From: Aestuariivivens insulae | Lineage (GTDB): Bacteria > Bacteroidota > Bacteroidia > Flavobacteriales > Flavobacteriaceae | Length of the DNA: 64,000 nt | Assembly: GCF_022662195.1 (NCBI RefSeq) | Contig: NZ_JAKMCS010000013.1 | Location: 1-64,000, forward strand | Direction: 5' to 3' | Shown here: positions 1,339-18,701 of the stretch, one piece after another | How positions within the stretch are numbered: position 1 is the stretch's first letter | Layout: every line of letters begins with the position of its first letter | Made by a program: the position numbers and the translations under genes | The notes under the pieces: model-generated | Seen by the model: only the letters and a program-made list of their open reading frames with translations | Database searches by the model: none | Told to the model about the DNA's origin: nothing

Positions 1339-2160
1339 TTAATACTTAATAAATTTTATAGTATGTCCTTTATCTTCAATCTCCATATGGGCAATATATA
1401 TGCCATCCTTTAGAGTTGACAGGTTTATGGTTTCTTTGCTGTTATTTGACCTTTTAGACAATACATGTTTTCCTAGCATATTGTAGATTTCAATAGTATC
1501 GATAGGAGTATTGGCTGAGTTAAGTGTTAAAACATCGTTTTCTCTATTATAATAATGTGTAATGGGATTGGTATTAAAATCATCAATGCCAAGAGTACCT
1601 GTGGTTATGGATAGTTCGTCTATATTGATGGCGGATTGATTGGTAGTATTATGATGTCTAAATGCAATATAGGCTGAATTACCTGCTAAGTCTGAAATAT
1701 CTATACTTCGGGTTACAAATACACCAGCGCCTCCTATTTCATCAGTATATTCACTTCTTTGAATAGCACTAGATTCAAAATCGCTGGTTTGATTCCCTAA
1801 TGCAGCATAAACGGTGTAATATTCATGTGCCGCATAAGATAATTCACCTCTCACTTTCCAGGACAACGTAATATTATCACCCGTACTAAAAGAGCTTAGG
1901 TCAATGGCATGGGAAATAATCCAATTATCTGGGGTAATGCTAGATTGTGAGTGTGAGGCAATGACCTTATGGCCTCCATAATAGGATGAAAACTCCCACC
2001 ACATCCAATTATAACTATCACCATCTTGATCCTCAACATCCCAACAAACATTTATAACATTTGTATCAAATGTTTCTAATACTGGTAATGTATTGTCACA
2101 TTGAGCTATCAAGGTATGGCTTACTAATAGAAAACAAGTTAAAAGTAGTACTCTTTTCAT
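1339..2160 (-). CDS. Secreted choice-of-anchor J / cleaved-adhesin-like protein with T9SS tail
   Basis: Start placed at the ATG giving MKRVLLLTCFLLVSHTLIAQ, a clean 20-residue signal peptide; an ATG seven codons upstream would spoil it. 273 residues. Residues ~28-190 carry an aromatic-rich beta-sandwich (ETFDTNVINVCWDVEDQDGD, then WIISHAIDLSS) typical of the choice-of-anchor J / gingipain-adhesin fold, usually carbohydrate or protein binding. The C-terminal ~75 residues (IEIYNMLGKHVLSK to IKFIKY) are a T9SS type A sorting domain. It faces the giant T9SS protein across a terminator. Function beyond surface binding is unknown. Confidence 0.8.
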   Translation of the reverse strand: MKRVLLLTCFLLVSHTLIAQCDNTLPVLETFDTNVINVCWDVEDQDGDSYNWMWWEFSSYYGGHKVIASHSQSSITPDNWIISHAIDLSSFSTGDNITLSWKVRGELSYAAHEYYTVYAALGNQTSDFESSAIQRSEYTDEIGGAGVFVTRSIDISDLAGNSAYIAFRHHNTTNQSAINIDELSITTGTLGIDDFNTNPITHYYNRENDVLTLNSANTPIDTIEIYNMLGKHVLSKRSNNSKETINLSTLKDGIYIAHMEIEDKGHTIKFIKY

Positions 2161-2579
2161 AATCAAGTAGGTTAAATTCATGCTAAAGATAAAAAATATT
2201 GTCTTTTTAGCGAATAAAAAAGCATTTTATCGATTAATTGTTATTAATTGTAAGTTATAGAATACGCAAAAATGCAGTTCATCGATATTTAAAGTTTCAT
2301 ATACGTGTCGTTCAAAGCCTTGGATCTTATTTATTGAAACTAATCTTGTTAAATAAATAGCAAAATGCCTCAATATTAATTCCAAACAGATCTCATTTAT
2401 AAGCATTTGGGTAGGCTCCTTCATAGCTCCTCCCTATCTAAGAGCACTCTAAGTGCACTCTAATTGCACTTAAAGGCATATAAACAACGAAAAGTTGTTG
2501 ATATCCTATAATAATTTTACCGCTTTCATTCTTTAAAAACCCTTTAAAGATGTTATTTTTGCACATTACAATTTTTTTT
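2161..2579. other. Intergenic region, AT-rich
   Basis: About 420 bases between divergent genes. Short open frames here (2227-2424 and 2438-2623, minus) have poor composition and I do not accept them as genes. At 2444-2473 a loosely repeated GCACT motif occurs about 12 bases apart. The helicase promoter is at the right end. Confidence 0.6.
2554..2561 (+). promoter_or_regulatory. Bacteroidota -7 promoter element TATTTTTG
   Basis: Matches the TAnnTTTG consensus of the flavobacterial housekeeping sigma factor and lies 18 bases before the ATG at 2580. It overlaps the longer open frame from 2550, which argues for the 2580 start. Confidence 0.6.
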
Positions 2580-4133
2580 ATGGGGATTTCAACATTAGAA
2601 TTAGAAGAACGCAAAACAGGCAAGGATTTATACAGTTATCAAAAAGGGGCAATAAATAAAATTTTTAAAGCTTTCGAGGAATCTCCAGAAGATTACCATT
2701 TGTTGTACCAATTACCAACCGGAGGCGGGAAAACGGTTATTTTCTCGGAAATAGTAAGGCAATATCTAAAGCACCATAACAAAAAGGTGTTGGTCATGAC
2801 GCACCGTATAGAGCTTTGTAAACAAACCTCTAAAATGCTTACCGAATTTGGTGTGGTTAACAAAGTGGTTGATAGTAAAGCAGACCTTAGCGATCAAAAG
2901 GAATACAGTTGTTTTGTGGCTATGGTGGAAACCCTTAACAATAGGTTGAATGACGACAAGCTAGATATTTCAGATATTGGCTTGGTTATTATAGACGAGG
3001 CTCATTACAATTCCTTCACCAAACTATTTAAGTTCTTTAGCAAGTCTTTTATCCTGGGGGTTACGGCTACTCCGTTAAGTTCCAGTATTGAATTACCTAT
3101 GACCGATAATTACGATGAACTTATTGTTGGTGAGAGCATAGAATCCTTGATTGAAAATGGCTTTTTGTCCCGTGCCCAAATGTACTCGTACAATGTGGGA
3201 TTGACTTCTTTAGTGGTTGGAGCCAATGGTGACTATACCGTAAAGTCATCGGAAGATCTATATACAGCCGACGATATGCTGTCTAAATTAATACAGGCTT
3301 ACGAAGAACGTTCTAAAGGCAAGAAAACCTTAATCTTTAATAACGGGATCAATACCTCGCTATATGTATATGAAACCTTTAGAAGGGCAGGCTATAAAAT
3401 AGCACATCTCGATAATACCAATACCAAAAAGGAGCGGGCCATGATCTTAAAATGGTTTAAGAATACACCAGATGCCATTTTAACCTCGGTAAGTATTCTA
3501 ACCACAGGATTTGATGAGCCTACCGTTGAAAGCATCATTTTAAATCGGGCAACAAAATCGCTAACCCTCTATTATCAGATGATTGGTAGGGGATCTCGGG
3601 TCTTAAAAGATAAAAAAACCTTTACGGTTATCGATTTAGGAAACAATTTCCACCGCTTTGGCCCTTGGGGCGATAATTTGGACTGGCAACGCATTTTCAA
3701 ATCACCAAACTATTATCTGGATACCTTGTTAAGTGATGAAGAACTGGAAAGCAATTTTAGATATGAAATGCCAGATGAGTTGCGTGCAGAGTTTTCCAAT
3801 TCTAAAGAAGTCTATTTCGATATCCAAAAAACCTATGTGGATTGTATTAGAAGCGGGAAATCTTCAAAAGCGGTGCTGGAGCAATCTATAGAGCAGCATG
3901 CTAAAATATGTATTGAAAATAGTGAGGATGTTTATGATGCTATTGCCTTGGCTAAAAAATTGGGTGATGATATCGATTTTAGAATTGGGCGCTATACCAA
4001 ATGTATAAGTAAGAGTACGTTTAATTTTGTGGAATGGCTTAAGGGCGATTACAGAAAAAAATTAAACGCCTATTTACGATTAAATTTCGATGATGTCTTT
4101 GAAGCGATACATGGTTATCCGCCAGAGGATTAA
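2580..4133 (+). CDS. DEAD/DEAH-box superfamily 2 helicase
   Basis: 517 residues from ATG 2580. Superfamily 2 motifs are all visible: Walker A PTGGGKT (46-52), motif Ia-like MTHRIEL, motif II DEAH (139-142), motif III VTATP (161-165) and motif VI QMIGRGSR (333-340). The two RecA-like domains are followed by ~150 residues of less conserved sequence. This is an ATP-dependent helicase of the ResIII/SSL2-like type, probably acting in DNA or RNA repair and turnover. No restriction or methylase partner is adjacent, so a restriction role is unlikely. It has its own promoter and stands alone. The ATG at 2550 lies upstream of the inferred transcription start and is rejected. Confidence 0.9.
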   Translation: MGISTLELEERKTGKDLYSYQKGAINKIFKAFEESPEDYHLLYQLPTGGGKTVIFSEIVRQYLKHHNKKVLVMTHRIELCKQTSKMLTEFGVVNKVVDSKADLSDQKEYSCFVAMVETLNNRLNDDKLDISDIGLVIIDEAHYNSFTKLFKFFSKSFILGVTATPLSSSIELPMTDNYDELIVGESIESLIENGFLSRAQMYSYNVGLTSLVVGANGDYTVKSSEDLYTADDMLSKLIQAYEERSKGKKTLIFNNGINTSLYVYETFRRAGYKIAHLDNTNTKKERAMILKWFKNTPDAILTSVSILTTGFDEPTVESIILNRATKSLTLYYQMIGRGSRVLKDKKTFTVIDLGNNFHRFGPWGDNLDWQRIFKSPNYYLDTLLSDEELESNFRYEMPDELRAEFSNSKEVYFDIQKTYVDCIRSGKSSKAVLEQSIEQHAKICIENSEDVYDAIALAKKLGDDIDFRIGRYTKCISKSTFNFVEWLKGDYRKKLNAYLRLNFDDVFEAIHGYPPED

Positions 4134-15482: not shown

Positions 15483-16636
15483 AAAATTCAACCCTACCAT
15501 CCGTTAAAAGCACATGCTATAAAGTATTTATTCTTGGTTTTATGTTTTTGGCTATGGCCTGTAACAATGGGCCTTCAAAAGCTAAATCCAATACAACTGA
15601 AACGACTAACACACCAAAATTTGAGACCATTTATTGGAACGTTAAGGCCATCCATCCCGACGGACAAAGCTTAGACGTTAAAATGTTTGACAATGCAGGT
15701 GAAGGTTTTGATATCAAGGCCATTCAAAACGCCGATCAAGATAATTTACTGGACGTTAAAGCCATGGTGAATGATGAAATCTTACCCGTTAAGATATTGG
15801 TGAGCGACAATCAATTTACGCCCGTGGTAGCCATTACCGACTCTGGTAGTGCCTACAAACTCAAAGCCATAACTCCAGAAGGGGAGCAAATTGAAATAAT
15901 AGGAGTTGCTAGATTTGGCAATATTGTAATTATGAAAGCCCTTACCAAAAAAGGAAAGTTCTATGGTGTAAAAGCCATTTCACCAACGGGACAACTTAAT
16001 GATATTAAAGGTATAAAAATTAATTCCCAGGACAGGGAGATGACCTTAAGGGGCCATAGCATCTATGCCCATGTTAAAGCCATGCATCCATCAGACGATG
16101 AAGATAACTTTGCGCTACCTAAGAAAAACATAGCCAAAGGCCCTTATAATAGTAATTTTGAAACCATTTCATGGAACATTAAAGCGATAACCCCCGATGG
16201 TAAAAATCTGGATATTAAAGCTATTGATCCCAAAGGCAATACCTTTGATGTTAAAGCGCTACAAGACTCCAAACAACATAGCTTCATGGATATTAAGGCC
16301 TTTGTAGATGGGGCCGTATTACCAGTTAAAATAATACAAAGGGAAGCTTCCGATACCTATTCGCCCATTAAGGCCATTGGAGCAGACGGCACTATTTACG
16401 ACATCAAGGCCTTAACGGAAGACCAGCAAAAACTGGACGTTAAAGGTATTAGTAGGTCTGGTAATATTGTTCATGTTAAAGCGGTTAATGAAAATGGAGA
16501 CCTTTATGCGGTTAAGGCTTTTGCTCCAGACGGCAAACTTAATGCCGTAAAAGGGATTAAGATTTTTGATAGAGCCGTGGAAATGAATGTTCAAGGCCAT
16601 CCTGTTTATGCGCATTTAAAGGCGATTAGTCAATAA
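15479..16636 (+). CDS. VKAI-repeat lipoprotein (DUF7486-like), unknown function
   Basis: 385 residues. Signal ends in a lipobox (FLAMAC, Cys28). The mature part is two tandem copies of a ~190-residue module (about 45-205 and 220-385). Each is built from many short strands of the form D-(I/V)-K-A-(I/M/L) spaced 9-20 residues apart, and each ends with a G-H-x-(I/V)-Y-A-H-(V/L)-K-A motif. This resembles a domain of unknown function found in Flavobacteriia. The repeated beta-strands suggest a propeller or solenoid exposed in the periplasm or on the cell surface. No catalytic motif is evident. A strong hairpin follows the gene. Confidence 0.75.
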   Translation: MKNSTLPSVKSTCYKVFILGFMFLAMACNNGPSKAKSNTTETTNTPKFETIYWNVKAIHPDGQSLDVKMFDNAGEGFDIKAIQNADQDNLLDVKAMVNDEILPVKILVSDNQFTPVVAITDSGSAYKLKAITPEGEQIEIIGVARFGNIVIMKALTKKGKFYGVKAISPTGQLNDIKGIKINSQDREMTLRGHSIYAHVKAMHPSDDEDNFALPKKNIAKGPYNSNFETISWNIKAITPDGKNLDIKAIDPKGNTFDVKALQDSKQHSFMDIKAFVDGAVLPVKIIQREASDTYSPIKAIGADGTIYDIKALTEDQQKLDVKGISRSGNIVHVKAVNENGDLYAVKAFAPDGKLNAVKGIKIFDRAVEMNVQGHPVYAHLKAISQ

Positions 16637-16671
16637 GTTTTATATCTGATACAGAACTTTTATAGCTTCAA

Positions 16672-16718
16672 TTATGGACAATAGTGTAATTATATGCTAT
16701 TGTCCATAAATGTTTTTG
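16672..16718 (+). terminator. Long hairpin terminator
   Basis: A perfect 13-bp inverted repeat (TTATGGACAATAG at 16672-16684, CTATTGTCCATAA at 16697-16709, 12-base loop) followed by a T-rich stretch. It lies 36 bases after the repeat lipoprotein and marks the left edge of the AT-rich island. Confidence 0.6.
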
Positions 16719-16739
16719 GTCTATAATGTTCTCGTGTAA

Positions 16740-17413
16740 GGTAGTTTTGCTTTGGTTAATAGTGAAAGTTGTTACCGCAGTTTCTTGAAAAAGTTTATTC
16801 CAGAATTACCATCTACTGATTATGATGTAAGTAAAGATTACATTGAAAACTTGATTCATTTCCCTATAAGAATCCCCTCTATGAGTGAATCAGAATTTGA
16901 AACTTACACAAATTTACTATTCGCAAAACTACATCTTAAATCTACTGAATTTAAAGAGTTAATTTACAAAGTATTTAACGAAACCTCTGACGATATAATT
17001 ACCGCAAAATTAAGTTCAGAAAATATTTCAGAATATTTAAGTAATGTTCCTGAAGAATTAAAACAAGATTTGATTCTTTCAAAGCAAATTAATTCAATAT
17101 TGGATTCAATATTAAGTGGTAATCCTAGACAATGCAAGCGATTTTTGAATATGTTGATAATTAGGATTAACATGGCTAAATCTAAAGGGATTGATTTAAA
17201 AAAGAATGTTCTAGCAAAATTATGTTGTTGGAGTATTTTAAAACAGAATCTTTTAATCAACTTGTAAAAGCATCATATGAGAAAGATAAAAACATTCTTA
17301 AGAGCGTGGAGAATATTGAGGAAGGAAAAGAAAGTATTGACAATACATTTGATGTCTGGTTAAGTGATATGTGGTTGAAAAAGTGGGTTAATACAGAACC
17401 AAAAAATGCGTAG
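16740..17413 (+). pseudogene. KAP-family P-loop NTPase remnant (QatA-like), frameshifted
   Basis: Two overlapping frames make one protein when joined near 17222. Frame 1 contains DYIENLIHFPIRIPSMSESE and SGNPRQCKRFLNMLIIRIN, features of the KAP NTPase C-terminal half. Frame 2 continues as LLEYFKTESFNQLVK and ends DVWLSDMWLKKWVNTEPKNA. A single lost base around AAAATTATGTTG explains the break. There is no start codon, and the Walker A/B half is missing. The frame also stops where full-length relatives usually carry on into a conserved C-terminal region. KAP NTPases are membrane-associated ATPases; QatA is the ATPase of the Qat anti-phage system. No other Qat gene is present. Confidence 0.7.
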
Positions 17414-17574
17414 CATTCATGAGCACCAATAAAAAGAAATATAAACCTCACGAGAATCGCATATTTAAAAATTTCTGGAGGATTGTACAGAATATTAAAA
17501 TTATGAGCGTGTCGTTTTTATTATAATTCTTGTAAATAATGTATGCTTACTTAGATAATGATCCGTAGGCCGTA

Positions 17575-17662
17575 AAATGGCTGTAACATAATGGTTAACG
17601 ATATAGAACACTAGCGTGTCGCTATATCTACAATTATGTTAAATACGCAGTATTCGCCATTT
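17575..17662. other. Branched long hairpin with an exact XerD-arm match
   Basis: Outer stem AAATGGC (17575-17581) pairs with GCCATTT (17656-17662). Inside are two arms. One has nested stems TAACATAAT/ATTATGTTA (17584-17592, 17633-17641), GATATAG/CTATATC (17600-17606, 17622-17628) and ACAC/GTGT around a TAGC loop. The other is AATAC-GCA-GTATT (17642-17654). TTATGTTAAAT (17634-17644) equals the XerD-binding arm of E. coli dif. It may be a recombination site that folds as single-stranded DNA, or a structured RNA. Confidence 0.5.
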
Positions 17663-17690
17663 CACTCAGATAACACATTTGTTCTATAAT

Positions 17691-17709
17691 TTATATTATG
17701 TAAAATAGA
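17691..17709 (+). repeat. 19-bp direct repeat, left copy (dif-like)
   Basis: TTATATTATGTAAAATAGA, identical to 18293-18311. It contains TTATGTAAAAT, one mismatch from the E. coli XerD arm, preceded by TTTATA (dif centre TGTATA) and by ATAA, the usual inner end of the XerC arm. Confidence 0.65.
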
Positions 17710-17733
17710 GTTTTTACACTTCCATAATCTACT

Positions 17734-17910
17734 CTATACCCTTATTCCTACTGGGTTCAAAGAATTAACATACAAAAAAGTAAAAACTAGATATTGTTTG
17801 TATTCAATAAAGGAAACCGCCACTTTTCTGGGAAATTTTCGATGTAGGTAATCTAAGTTTTGGTTAAAAGTTTCACTAGATAGCTTTGAGGCTTTAATCT
17901 TATAAATCAT
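17734..17910 (-). pseudogene. Truncated RelE/ParE-like toxin
   Basis: 58 codons from the ATG at 17910, which overlaps the antitoxin-like gene by 11 bases, a classic toxin-antitoxin arrangement. MIYKIKASKLSSETFNQNLD followed by a basic second helix and ending NSLNPVGIRV resembles the N-terminal helix hairpin and following turn of RelE/ParE toxins. Those are normally ~90-100 residues with catalytic or gyrase-binding residues in the missing C-terminal sheet. The frame stops 25 bases before the 19-bp repeat, so truncation at that boundary is likely. Assignment is by pattern only and is moderately uncertain. Confidence 0.4.
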
Positions 17911-18226
17911 ACTTTTTCTTAGCAGCCGAAAGGACTTCTTCAAAGTCGACTGTTTGCCCTTTGATTATCTGTCCTTTCGATTTTTCTAACAAGGCTAATA
18001 TAGTATTTTCTTTATGTTCTTCAAATTCCTTAGGATAGAGGTACTTTGATATTTTTTTCATTTCTTCACTAGTAAACCTTTTCTCATTCATTTTCTTGTA
18101 AAACAGCCCTCTTTTAAGTCCAAGTAGGCCCATAAAATATTGCAACTTGTAATTGCTGTTTTTTATATCGTCTGCTAGCCTATCAAGTATTTTATCATAC
18201 TCATTAATTATGTCAACTGTGTTCAT
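17900..18226 (-). CDS. Putative antitoxin / small HTH protein
   Basis: 108 residues. The centre (YFMGLLGLKRGLFYKKMNEK and following SEEMKKISKYL) looks like a helix-turn-helix of the Cro/phage type. The C-terminal tail GQTVDFEEVLSAAKKKYDL is charged and typical of an antitoxin's toxin-binding end. It overlaps the truncated toxin-like frame. It would bind DNA and autoregulate the pair. Whether it still neutralises anything is doubtful because the partner is cut short. Confidence 0.5.
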   Translation of the reverse strand: MNTVDIINEYDKILDRLADDIKNSNYKLQYFMGLLGLKRGLFYKKMNEKRFTSEEMKKISKYLYPKEFEEHKENTILALLEKSKGQIIKGQTVDFEEVLSAAKKKYDL

Positions 18227-18292
18227 ATATATGACTATTTTATTTATATTTACGGTAAATATACAAATATTTTTATGACAAATCTATTATCA

Positions 18293-18311
18293 TTATATTA
18301 TGTAAAATAGA
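18293..18311 (+). repeat. 19-bp direct repeat, right copy
   Basis: Perfect copy of 17691-17709, 602 bases away, lying just upstream of the antitoxin-like gene. Beside it, TGCAAT (18318-18323) and ATTGCA (18329-18334) form a small perfect stem. Confidence 0.65.
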
Positions 18312-18377
18312 ATATTTTGCAATATAACATTGCATTAAGATAATATCCATTTCTTAAACCTACTTTGTTGCACCCTT

Positions 18378-18593
18378 CTACGCTTCAAGATTTTCATCTT
18401 CTAATTGTTGTGGGCTGTCTTTTTTCAATTTTAAATAGCCATTACCCTTAACCTTAAACGCTTTGTATTCTTCCTTACTGTACGACATAAAGTTAGACGA
18501 TCGTCTGTAAGCATCTTGAAAATCGGCGTGCTTTTTGGTGCGGCTTGTCCTTTTTCTGGTTTCCATAATGCGTATTACTTTTGAGGTTGACAC
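18378..18593 (-). CDS. Small basic protein, unknown function
   Basis: 71 residues, or 62 from the internal ATG at 18566 (METRKRTSRTKKHADFQDAY). Very basic N-terminus, acidic C-terminus (DSPQQLEDENLEA). No signal or membrane segment. It could bind nucleic acid. Family not recognised. It lies at the right border of the decayed island with normal flavobacterial composition. Confidence 0.5.
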   Translation of the reverse strand: MSTSKVIRIMETRKRTSRTKKHADFQDAYRRSSNFMSYSKEEYKAFKVKGNGYLKLKKDSPQQLEDENLEA

Positions 18594-18671
18594 TTATAAT
18601 TTAGCAAAAGTTTGAAGCAGTTTAATTGCTAAATTCATCATAAATATAGTATTTATTCTTTTAACCTGCTT

Positions 18672-18679
18672 TATATTTG
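18672..18679 (+). promoter_or_regulatory. -7 promoter element TATATTTG
   Basis: TAnnTTTG match 22 bases upstream of the ATG of the VTT-domain gene. Confidence 0.55.
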
Positions 18680-18701
18680 CCGTTTTAAATGCCTTAAGTC
18701 G

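Follow-up and report, generated by a model that had tools for sequence, protein, structure and literature searches.

A toxin-antitoxin-like unit of 602 bp at the primary dif site of a flavobacterial chromosome, probably inserted by Xer recombination

In this study, we analysed a stretch of 64,000 nucleotides from Aestuariivivens insulae (the whole stretch is called the window) and found a 602-bp unit at the primary dif of the chromosome, bounded by two direct copies of a dif-derived repeat. As judged from sequence comparison, this unit is probably a small toxin-antitoxin element that entered via XerC/XerD recombination at dif. It shows that toxin-antitoxin cargo of non-phage type can be present at the primary site of chromosome dimer resolution, and another genus provides a second example together with its empty site. 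A dif consensus can now be given for the whole family Flavobacteriaceae. Together, these data suggest that dif can capture small addiction genes.

Results

Two direct repeats bound a 602-bp unit

The sequence TTATATTATGTAAAATAGA occurs twice on the plus strand with a start-to-start distance of 602 bp (Table 1), and no further exact copy is present anywhere in the 4.23-Mb genome. A genome scan returned 13 further places resembling it, each with three mismatches, and eight places for the reversed control pattern. Shuffled versions of the window contained on average 0.13 matches at up to three mismatches, and two such matches were present in 2 of 100 shuffles. A chance repeat was therefore rejected by the window shuffles and the genome-wide scan. 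Common to both copies are the XerD arm, the AGA that follows it and five of the six spacer bases. The right copy consists of five spacer bases, the XerD arm TTATGTAAAAT (18298-18308) and AGA, and its spacer reads ATTATA. With a position-weight model trained on 81 dif sites of the family (window excluded), the left copy scored 54.8 bits and the right copy -15.4 bits, the family median being 51.6 and the lowest family site 9.7. Pfam recognised no phage or plasmid family in the ORFs inside the 602 bp, and none of these ORFs is large enough for a recombinase (integrase). Rfam gave nothing in ten loci at gathering score, nor in window positions 16600-18700 at E up to 1, and a reading as an Rfam element was rejected on this ground.

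Table 1. Features of the dif region of the window.
Feature	Position	Strand	Basis or remark
Inverted XerD-arm-like pair, can form a stem/hairpin	17584-17645		just left of dif, outside the unit
Complete chromosomal dif, left boundary of the unit	17679-17706	+	family-wide core, skew change, single copy in congeners
XerC arm of dif, TTGTTCTATAA	17679-17689		
Spacer of dif, TTTATA	17690-17695		
XerD arm of dif, TTATGTAAAAT	17696-17706		
Left 19-bp repeat copy	17691-17709	+	exact match
Body of the putative inserted unit	17710-18292		absent at this place in G001, G002 and G003
ParE-like toxin remnant, N-terminal part only	17734-17910	-	weak profile match and position
Antitoxin, intact, 108 aa	17900-18226	-	in several relatives it overlaps or adjoins a ParE-like toxin gene
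Right 19-bp repeat copy, right boundary	18293-18311	+	without XerC arm

The left copy belongs to the chromosomal dif

Based on its conservation, the left repeat almost certainly sits in the chromosome's own dif, CTATAATTTATATTATGTAAAATA. This 24-base core was detected at up to two mismatches in 359 of 395 Flavobacteriaceae genomes, and the other 36 were without a match. It occurs once in the genome of the window and once in the other carriers, except for two genomes (G324 and G366) where it is present twice; the reversed control gave five matches. A 22-base core taken from two congeners, G001 and G003, was found at up to three mismatches in 278 of 299 family genomes, and in 242 of the 249 good ones. 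Across the core, the consensus over 81 family sites is identical to the left copy. For the Bacteroidetes, dif was predicted in 19 of 19 cases by Kono et al., according to the accessible part of that paper (PMC3025954).

The left dif lies at the replication terminus as judged from local skew, the GC signal being noisy in the 33-contig genome of the window. Along the contig of the window, the AT skew has opposite signs in the 12-16 and 16-20 kb bins. The GC skew is about zero at 8-24 kb and negative from 24 kb, and it becomes positive again at 60-80 kb. Both AT and GC skew change at the own dif of G003, and G001 shows a GC change with noise beyond. In the closed genome G017, where dif is at 2.998 Mb, GC skew falls from +0.072 (2.80 Mb) to -0.020 (2.95 Mb), which places the GC change about 50-180 kb from dif. 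The genome of the window encodes XerD, whose score of 337 bits exceeds the curated cut-off; another Xer-like gene is present and scores 258 bits, below the cut-off.

Congeners carry an empty dif

Three genomes of the same genus (G001, G002 and G003) possess one dif each and no toxin-antitoxin unit there. In BLAST comparisons, both window copies map to the single dif of each of these congeners; in G001, positions 1496-1525 align to the left copy and positions 1487-1530 to the right copy. In G001 and G003 a 385-aa gene is kept in one flank, and the opposite flank keeps 71-aa-type and VTT genes; in G002 related genes are kept further out and the VTT gene is without a match. The flanks next to the site have diverged: the alignment with the congeners ends about 1 kb left of the window dif and restarts about 110 bp beyond the right copy. 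The XerC side of the family (ATTTGTnCTATAA) is present at the left window copy only. The XerD-side flank of the right copy, AGAATAT, equals the flank of G001 and G003, and that of the left copy is AGAGTTT. When the left XerC side and the right XerD side were joined, the resulting site scored 58.5 bits, compared to -19.2 for the reciprocal join. Among family sites, 35% have an outer XerD-side flank that scores as low as that of the left copy and 17% one as high as that of the right copy; since the left flank is no outlier, the partition of the XerD-side flanks rests mainly on the congeners. The XerD arm reads TTATGTCAAAT in G001 and G003 and TTATGTAAAAT in G002 and both window copies. A XerC flank on the left, together with a XerD flank on the right that is without a XerC arm, would be the pattern expected after Xer insertion at dif. 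An apparent insertion at dif with an empty site in relatives is one of the features expected of an integrative element exploiting Xer (IMEX).

The first-pass annotation had described the repeats as resembling Xer/dif sites, and had made this reading depend on the true flavobacterial dif and on the boundary in relatives. Both points came out in its favour: the left repeat lies within the primary dif of the family and matches its consensus, and the repeats mark the border between presence and absence of the unit in three congeners.

Left of dif and outside the unit, a remnant of a QatA/KAP ATPase defence gene is located at 16752-17264 on the plus strand, within a stretch of 16752-17413 (PADLOC QatA, E 1.7e-29). 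In G001, G002 and G003, the corresponding interval contained nothing that could be aligned to it. A different gene, of 395 aa, occupies this interval in G003, and the dif neighbourhood is therefore variable on both sides.

The cargo resembles a toxin-antitoxin pair

The antitoxin obtained no credible family from Pfam, NCBIfam or PADLOC, and its structure model is all-helical at low confidence (mean pLDDT 63). The toxin remnant overlaps the 3' end of the antitoxin gene by 11 bp, and toxins occupy the same position in the operons of G042, G188 and G231. A toxin profile was searched against 4246 fragments, taken from the 900 bp on the right side of the studied dif sites, with G270 excluded as one of the sources of the profile. 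The remnant ranked second with a weak match (E 1.5e-4 at a search space of 100, about 0.006 when scaled to 4246), and the two best matches were a fragment of G330 and the window ORF. The remnant has no Pfam match and was not found with the intact toxin of G042 as query. The toxins of the relatives scored above the PF05016 cut-off in G270 and G231 and below it in G188, and that of G042 had no match. The cargo thus resembles a toxin-antitoxin pair whose toxin is truncated, as had been assumed at first, with a weak ParE-like match for the toxin. It shares with ParE/RelE type II systems that its relatives are overlapping antitoxin and toxin genes, several of them ParE-like (PF05016), but it differs in that the antitoxin family is without a curated model and the window toxin is truncated. 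No antitoxin homologues were detected in the viral contigs, plasmids and phages searched, and these gave no support for a known plasmid or phage carrier.

A second unit in another genus and antitoxin loci beside dif

Among 299 family genomes, 11 contained a match to the antitoxin. In one of them, G270, which belongs to another genus, the antitoxin and an intact ParE toxin (PF05016 above cut-off) lie directly right of a perfect dif. The pair ends at a XerD-arm-like copy 794 bp away, a weak copy with three mismatches in 16 that, by eye, is also without a XerC arm. A congener of G270, G049, has an empty dif: its positions 1447-1522 align to G270 911-986 and positions 1498-2939 to G270 1756-3195, and the alignment breaks and restarts inside the dif site. 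The dif of a further congener, G401, is likewise empty. G270 may therefore be regarded as a second clean case, in a genus other than that of the window.

A profile search of 395 genomes identified 20 antitoxin loci at E <1e-20 in 18 genomes. Four of these are located at most 1 kb right of dif (window, G270, G330 and G380). For 15 of the other 16, no dif at up to four mismatches was found in the fetched flanks, three of which were shortened by contig ends. This flank scan left out G321 C1, and a variant dif of the G380 type would escape it; the dif of G380 was noticed via a nearby half-site. In G330 the order is dif, C-terminal toxin remnant, antitoxin, and dif keeps the consensus XerD-side flank. 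In G380 a variant dif with one extra base is followed by a 92-aa toxin ORF and the antitoxin. No right half-site was seen in G330 or G380; for this reason, and in view of the consensus flank of the former and the extra base of the latter, both count as beside dif only. Leaving out the window, 3 of 19 loci are linked to dif (P 1.5e-8 for uniform and independent placement, calculated post hoc), a value that shared descent would weaken.

The antitoxin tree contains 18 sequences, with G374 (stop) and G321 C1 left out, and has few firm branches. The window antitoxin groups with that of G042, which is not at dif (96/93). The four dif-linked antitoxins are not one clade, and the dif label is unclustered, 93 of 500 shuffles being as low. 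The starred branches of the tree force two changes of dif linkage, which could be two separate gains or one gain and one loss. Relative to dif, all four linked antitoxins are encoded on the minus strand. A truncated toxin is present in the window and in G330. The toxins of G270, G330 and G380 are convergent and that of the window is operonic, and therefore the unit is not one conserved cassette. A scan of genome contigs with three antitoxins gave three loci among the matches listed, with no dif in the fetched flanks, one of which ends just past the gene. ParD/ParE-like pairs, named by eye, were observed in G193 (L135) and G052 (L148), where they lie about 80-660 bp to the left of dif. They have another type of antitoxin and the half-site scan found none there, so that they were not counted as cases.

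Half-sites around dif in the family

We compared 147 dif regions, of which 138 were among the matches listed in the dif searches and nine were added for other reasons (window, G001, G003, G270, G049, G401, G134, G324 and G429). The left side is crowded: at a distance of 150-1000 bp from dif, XerD-arm half-sites are present there in plus orientation in 24 and in minus orientation in 25 of the 147 genomes. Right of dif, half-sites occur in 3 of 147, namely in the window and in two genomes (L114 and L115) where they lie in a 662-aa ORF. At least ten of the left half-sites are situated within about 25 bp of the ends of different large ORFs. For the left half-sites, 19 congener pairs were aligned. 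In L098/L099 the half-site aligns to the dif of the congener (77.8% over 54 bp, extending into the XerC-side flank), and in L110/L222 and L086/L085 it does so for 20-21 bp. These three alignments are as would be expected of a former dif. The other 16 of the 19 pairs gave no alignment of the half-site to the congener dif. In L109/L221 and L232/L136 the entire stretch from half-site to dif is common to both congeners, which speaks against a recent insertion there.

Discussion

From the end states described above, we infer the following course of events for the window unit. The attachment site of the element would have a XerD arm and the greater part of the dif spacer, but a poor XerC arm. Host XerC/XerD would then join a small circle carrying this spacer and XerD arm to dif. 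The left product would be a complete dif composed of the native XerC arm and the XerD arm of the element, and the right product a half-site in which the poor XerC arm of the element is followed by the native XerD arm and its flank. As one complete dif stays, chromosome dimer resolution would still be possible. With an incomplete right site, the unit would not be readily excised and its excision would be unlikely. The toxin-antitoxin pair would punish early loss, probably acting as an addiction cassette. Once the second site is inert the toxin would be free to decay, as may have happened in the window. The unit would thus work like an IMEX, and an IMEX-type insertion at the primary dif appears to fit the data better than a pdif module.

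Several known elements use chromosomal dif in a comparable way. Like TLC-phi, GGI and EludIMEX-1, as far as these are covered by the accessible text on them, the window unit is inserted at chromosomal dif, no integrase gene is seen, and one of two site copies is degenerate. It differs from these IMEX in its size of about 0.6 kb and in a cargo that consists of toxin-antitoxin genes only. In the accessible part of PMC5357621, TLC-phi, GGI and EludIMEX-1 are described with a conserved XerC arm, and TLC-phi and GGI with a divergent XerD arm. The window unit shows the reverse, with XerD arm and spacer conserved and a divergent XerC arm, so that the two bounded units (window and G270) have a polarity opposite to that of these elements. 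The same part of that paper attributes the stable integration of GGI to one degenerate site, the degenerate arm being that of XerD (PMC5357621). In the first-pass annotation, the poor XerC arm of the right copy was correctly noted and was taken to weaken the case for dif sites. The arm is indeed poor, but GGI provides a parallel to it, although a different arm is degenerate in GGI. A mobile element, LME-1, revealed the dif of the Legionellales (PMC9765430, accessible part). Bacteroidetes also harbor ssDNA proviruses at dif-type sites, of which BMV/Alpavirinae (PMC3091885) and PhiCjT23-like elements (PMC9719478) are described in the text available for these papers. They share with the window unit the phylum, a dif-type site and the lack of an integrase. 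However, on the same textual basis they span about 6-8 kb and carry replication and capsid genes, none of which was seen in the window unit. Searches of the open PMC literature listed no toxin-antitoxin unit at a flavobacterial dif, as judged from titles and abstract openings; subscription papers were outside the scope of this search.

Alternatively, the unit might be the remainder of a larger Xer-integrated element, such as an ssDNA prophage or a small plasmid, that was mostly deleted, with a single pair of cargo genes staying behind between the two site copies. We consider this unlikely. Elements integrated at dif do occur in the family. In G324, 8 kb between two direct dif copies (L386 2312-10322) encode a rolling-circle initiator and an endolysin, and this stretch is, from its gene content, probably an ssDNA-type prophage; PhiCjT23-like prophages are also found at dif in Flavobacterium, according to the accessible part of PMC9719478. 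However, no phage or plasmid Pfam family is left in the ORFs of the 602 bp, and the search of viral contigs, plasmids and phages did not yield the antitoxin. The polarity of the G324 prophage is the opposite one as well: in its left copy the XerD arm is altered and the XerC arm intact, as in TLC-phi and GGI. In addition, G270 contains another unit of about this size, which also argues against a remnant.

XerD-only binding sites have been described for SMC unloading in Bacillus. The right XerD arm could accordingly be an independent site of this kind, beside which the toxin-antitoxin genes arrived by an illegitimate or homologous event. The frequency of half-sites of either orientation left of dif is in favour of such sites, and half-sites without a XerC arm could function alone. 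Against this, the half-site of the window is the only convincing one right of dif, the matches in L114 and L115 lying inside an ORF. Moreover, a single congener site is matched by both window copies, and the G270/G049 alignment breaks inside the site. An independent XerD site therefore seems improbable.

The weakest alternative is a canonical pdif-type module that was exchanged with a plasmid, and the first-pass annotation had compared the unit to such modules of Acinetobacter. In the accessible parts of the respective papers, pdif modules have complete sites in inverse orientation and form C and D modules (PMC13141974), and Acinetobacter strain M10 has chromosomal dif modules, among them a dif-higA-higB module, away from the main dif (PMC12907356). 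The likeness lies in small Xer-bounded units with toxin-antitoxin cargo, dif-higA-higB measuring 762 bp by its coordinates (PMC12907356). In contrast to these modules, which as far as described have inverse sites and reside on plasmids or off the main dif, the window unit has direct sites, one of them incomplete, and is located at the main dif. As both copies are on the plus strand, the right one is without a XerC arm and the antitoxin had no match in the plasmids searched, a canonical pdif module is highly improbable and was rejected, and the equation with Acinetobacter modules is not supported.

Insertion of a small toxin-antitoxin element by XerC/XerD thus remains the favoured explanation for the window unit. 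A more far-reaching interpretation, which we regard as possible though rather doubtful, is that the flavobacterial dif serves as a capture site for toxin-antitoxin genes, anchored on the XerD arm. The pair would lock the insertion until one site decays, and the left half-sites would be scars of repeated captures. Under this wider interpretation, capture might be the mirror image of the XerC-arm-anchored IMEX, and attachment might need spacer and XerD arm only. The location of addiction genes at a site used for dimer resolution during cell division raises the question whether the pair shields its own insertion from excision by XerCD-FtsK, and whether the toxin is lost once the second site is dead.

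Further elements with similarity to Xer sites were observed around flavobacterial dif. In CTX-phi the attP is folded, and CTX-phi-type phages contain two inverted attP sites. The possible hairpin left of the window dif (Table 1) recalls the folded attP of CTX-phi. The pattern of one arm of this stem element is present left of dif in 47 of 147 genomes and right of dif in none. In several regions (L127, L129, L093, L063 and others), two inverted dif-like elements with apparent 7-bp spacers lie about 60-300 bp left of dif. Their patterns were found left of dif in 45 of 147 genomes (CTGGGATATTTTACATAAT) and in 28 of 147 (GCTATTTTACATAACGnnnAATTATAGATACAAAT), and right of dif in 0 and 1, respectively. 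The viral contigs gave no match to the exact patterns for the first inverted element or the stem element. Repeated TATAATGTAAATTATGTAAAAT sites were noticed in G075 (C7, C48 and C54), G020 (C9), G022 (C26) and G324 (C15), about 7-15 kb apart where they are on one contig, and possibly represent a second family of Xer-type sites. Finally, in two viral contigs (L321 and L352) the flavobacterial dif core occurs in inverted pairs at a distance of 83-111 bp, which resemble the attP pairs of CTX-phi-type phages.
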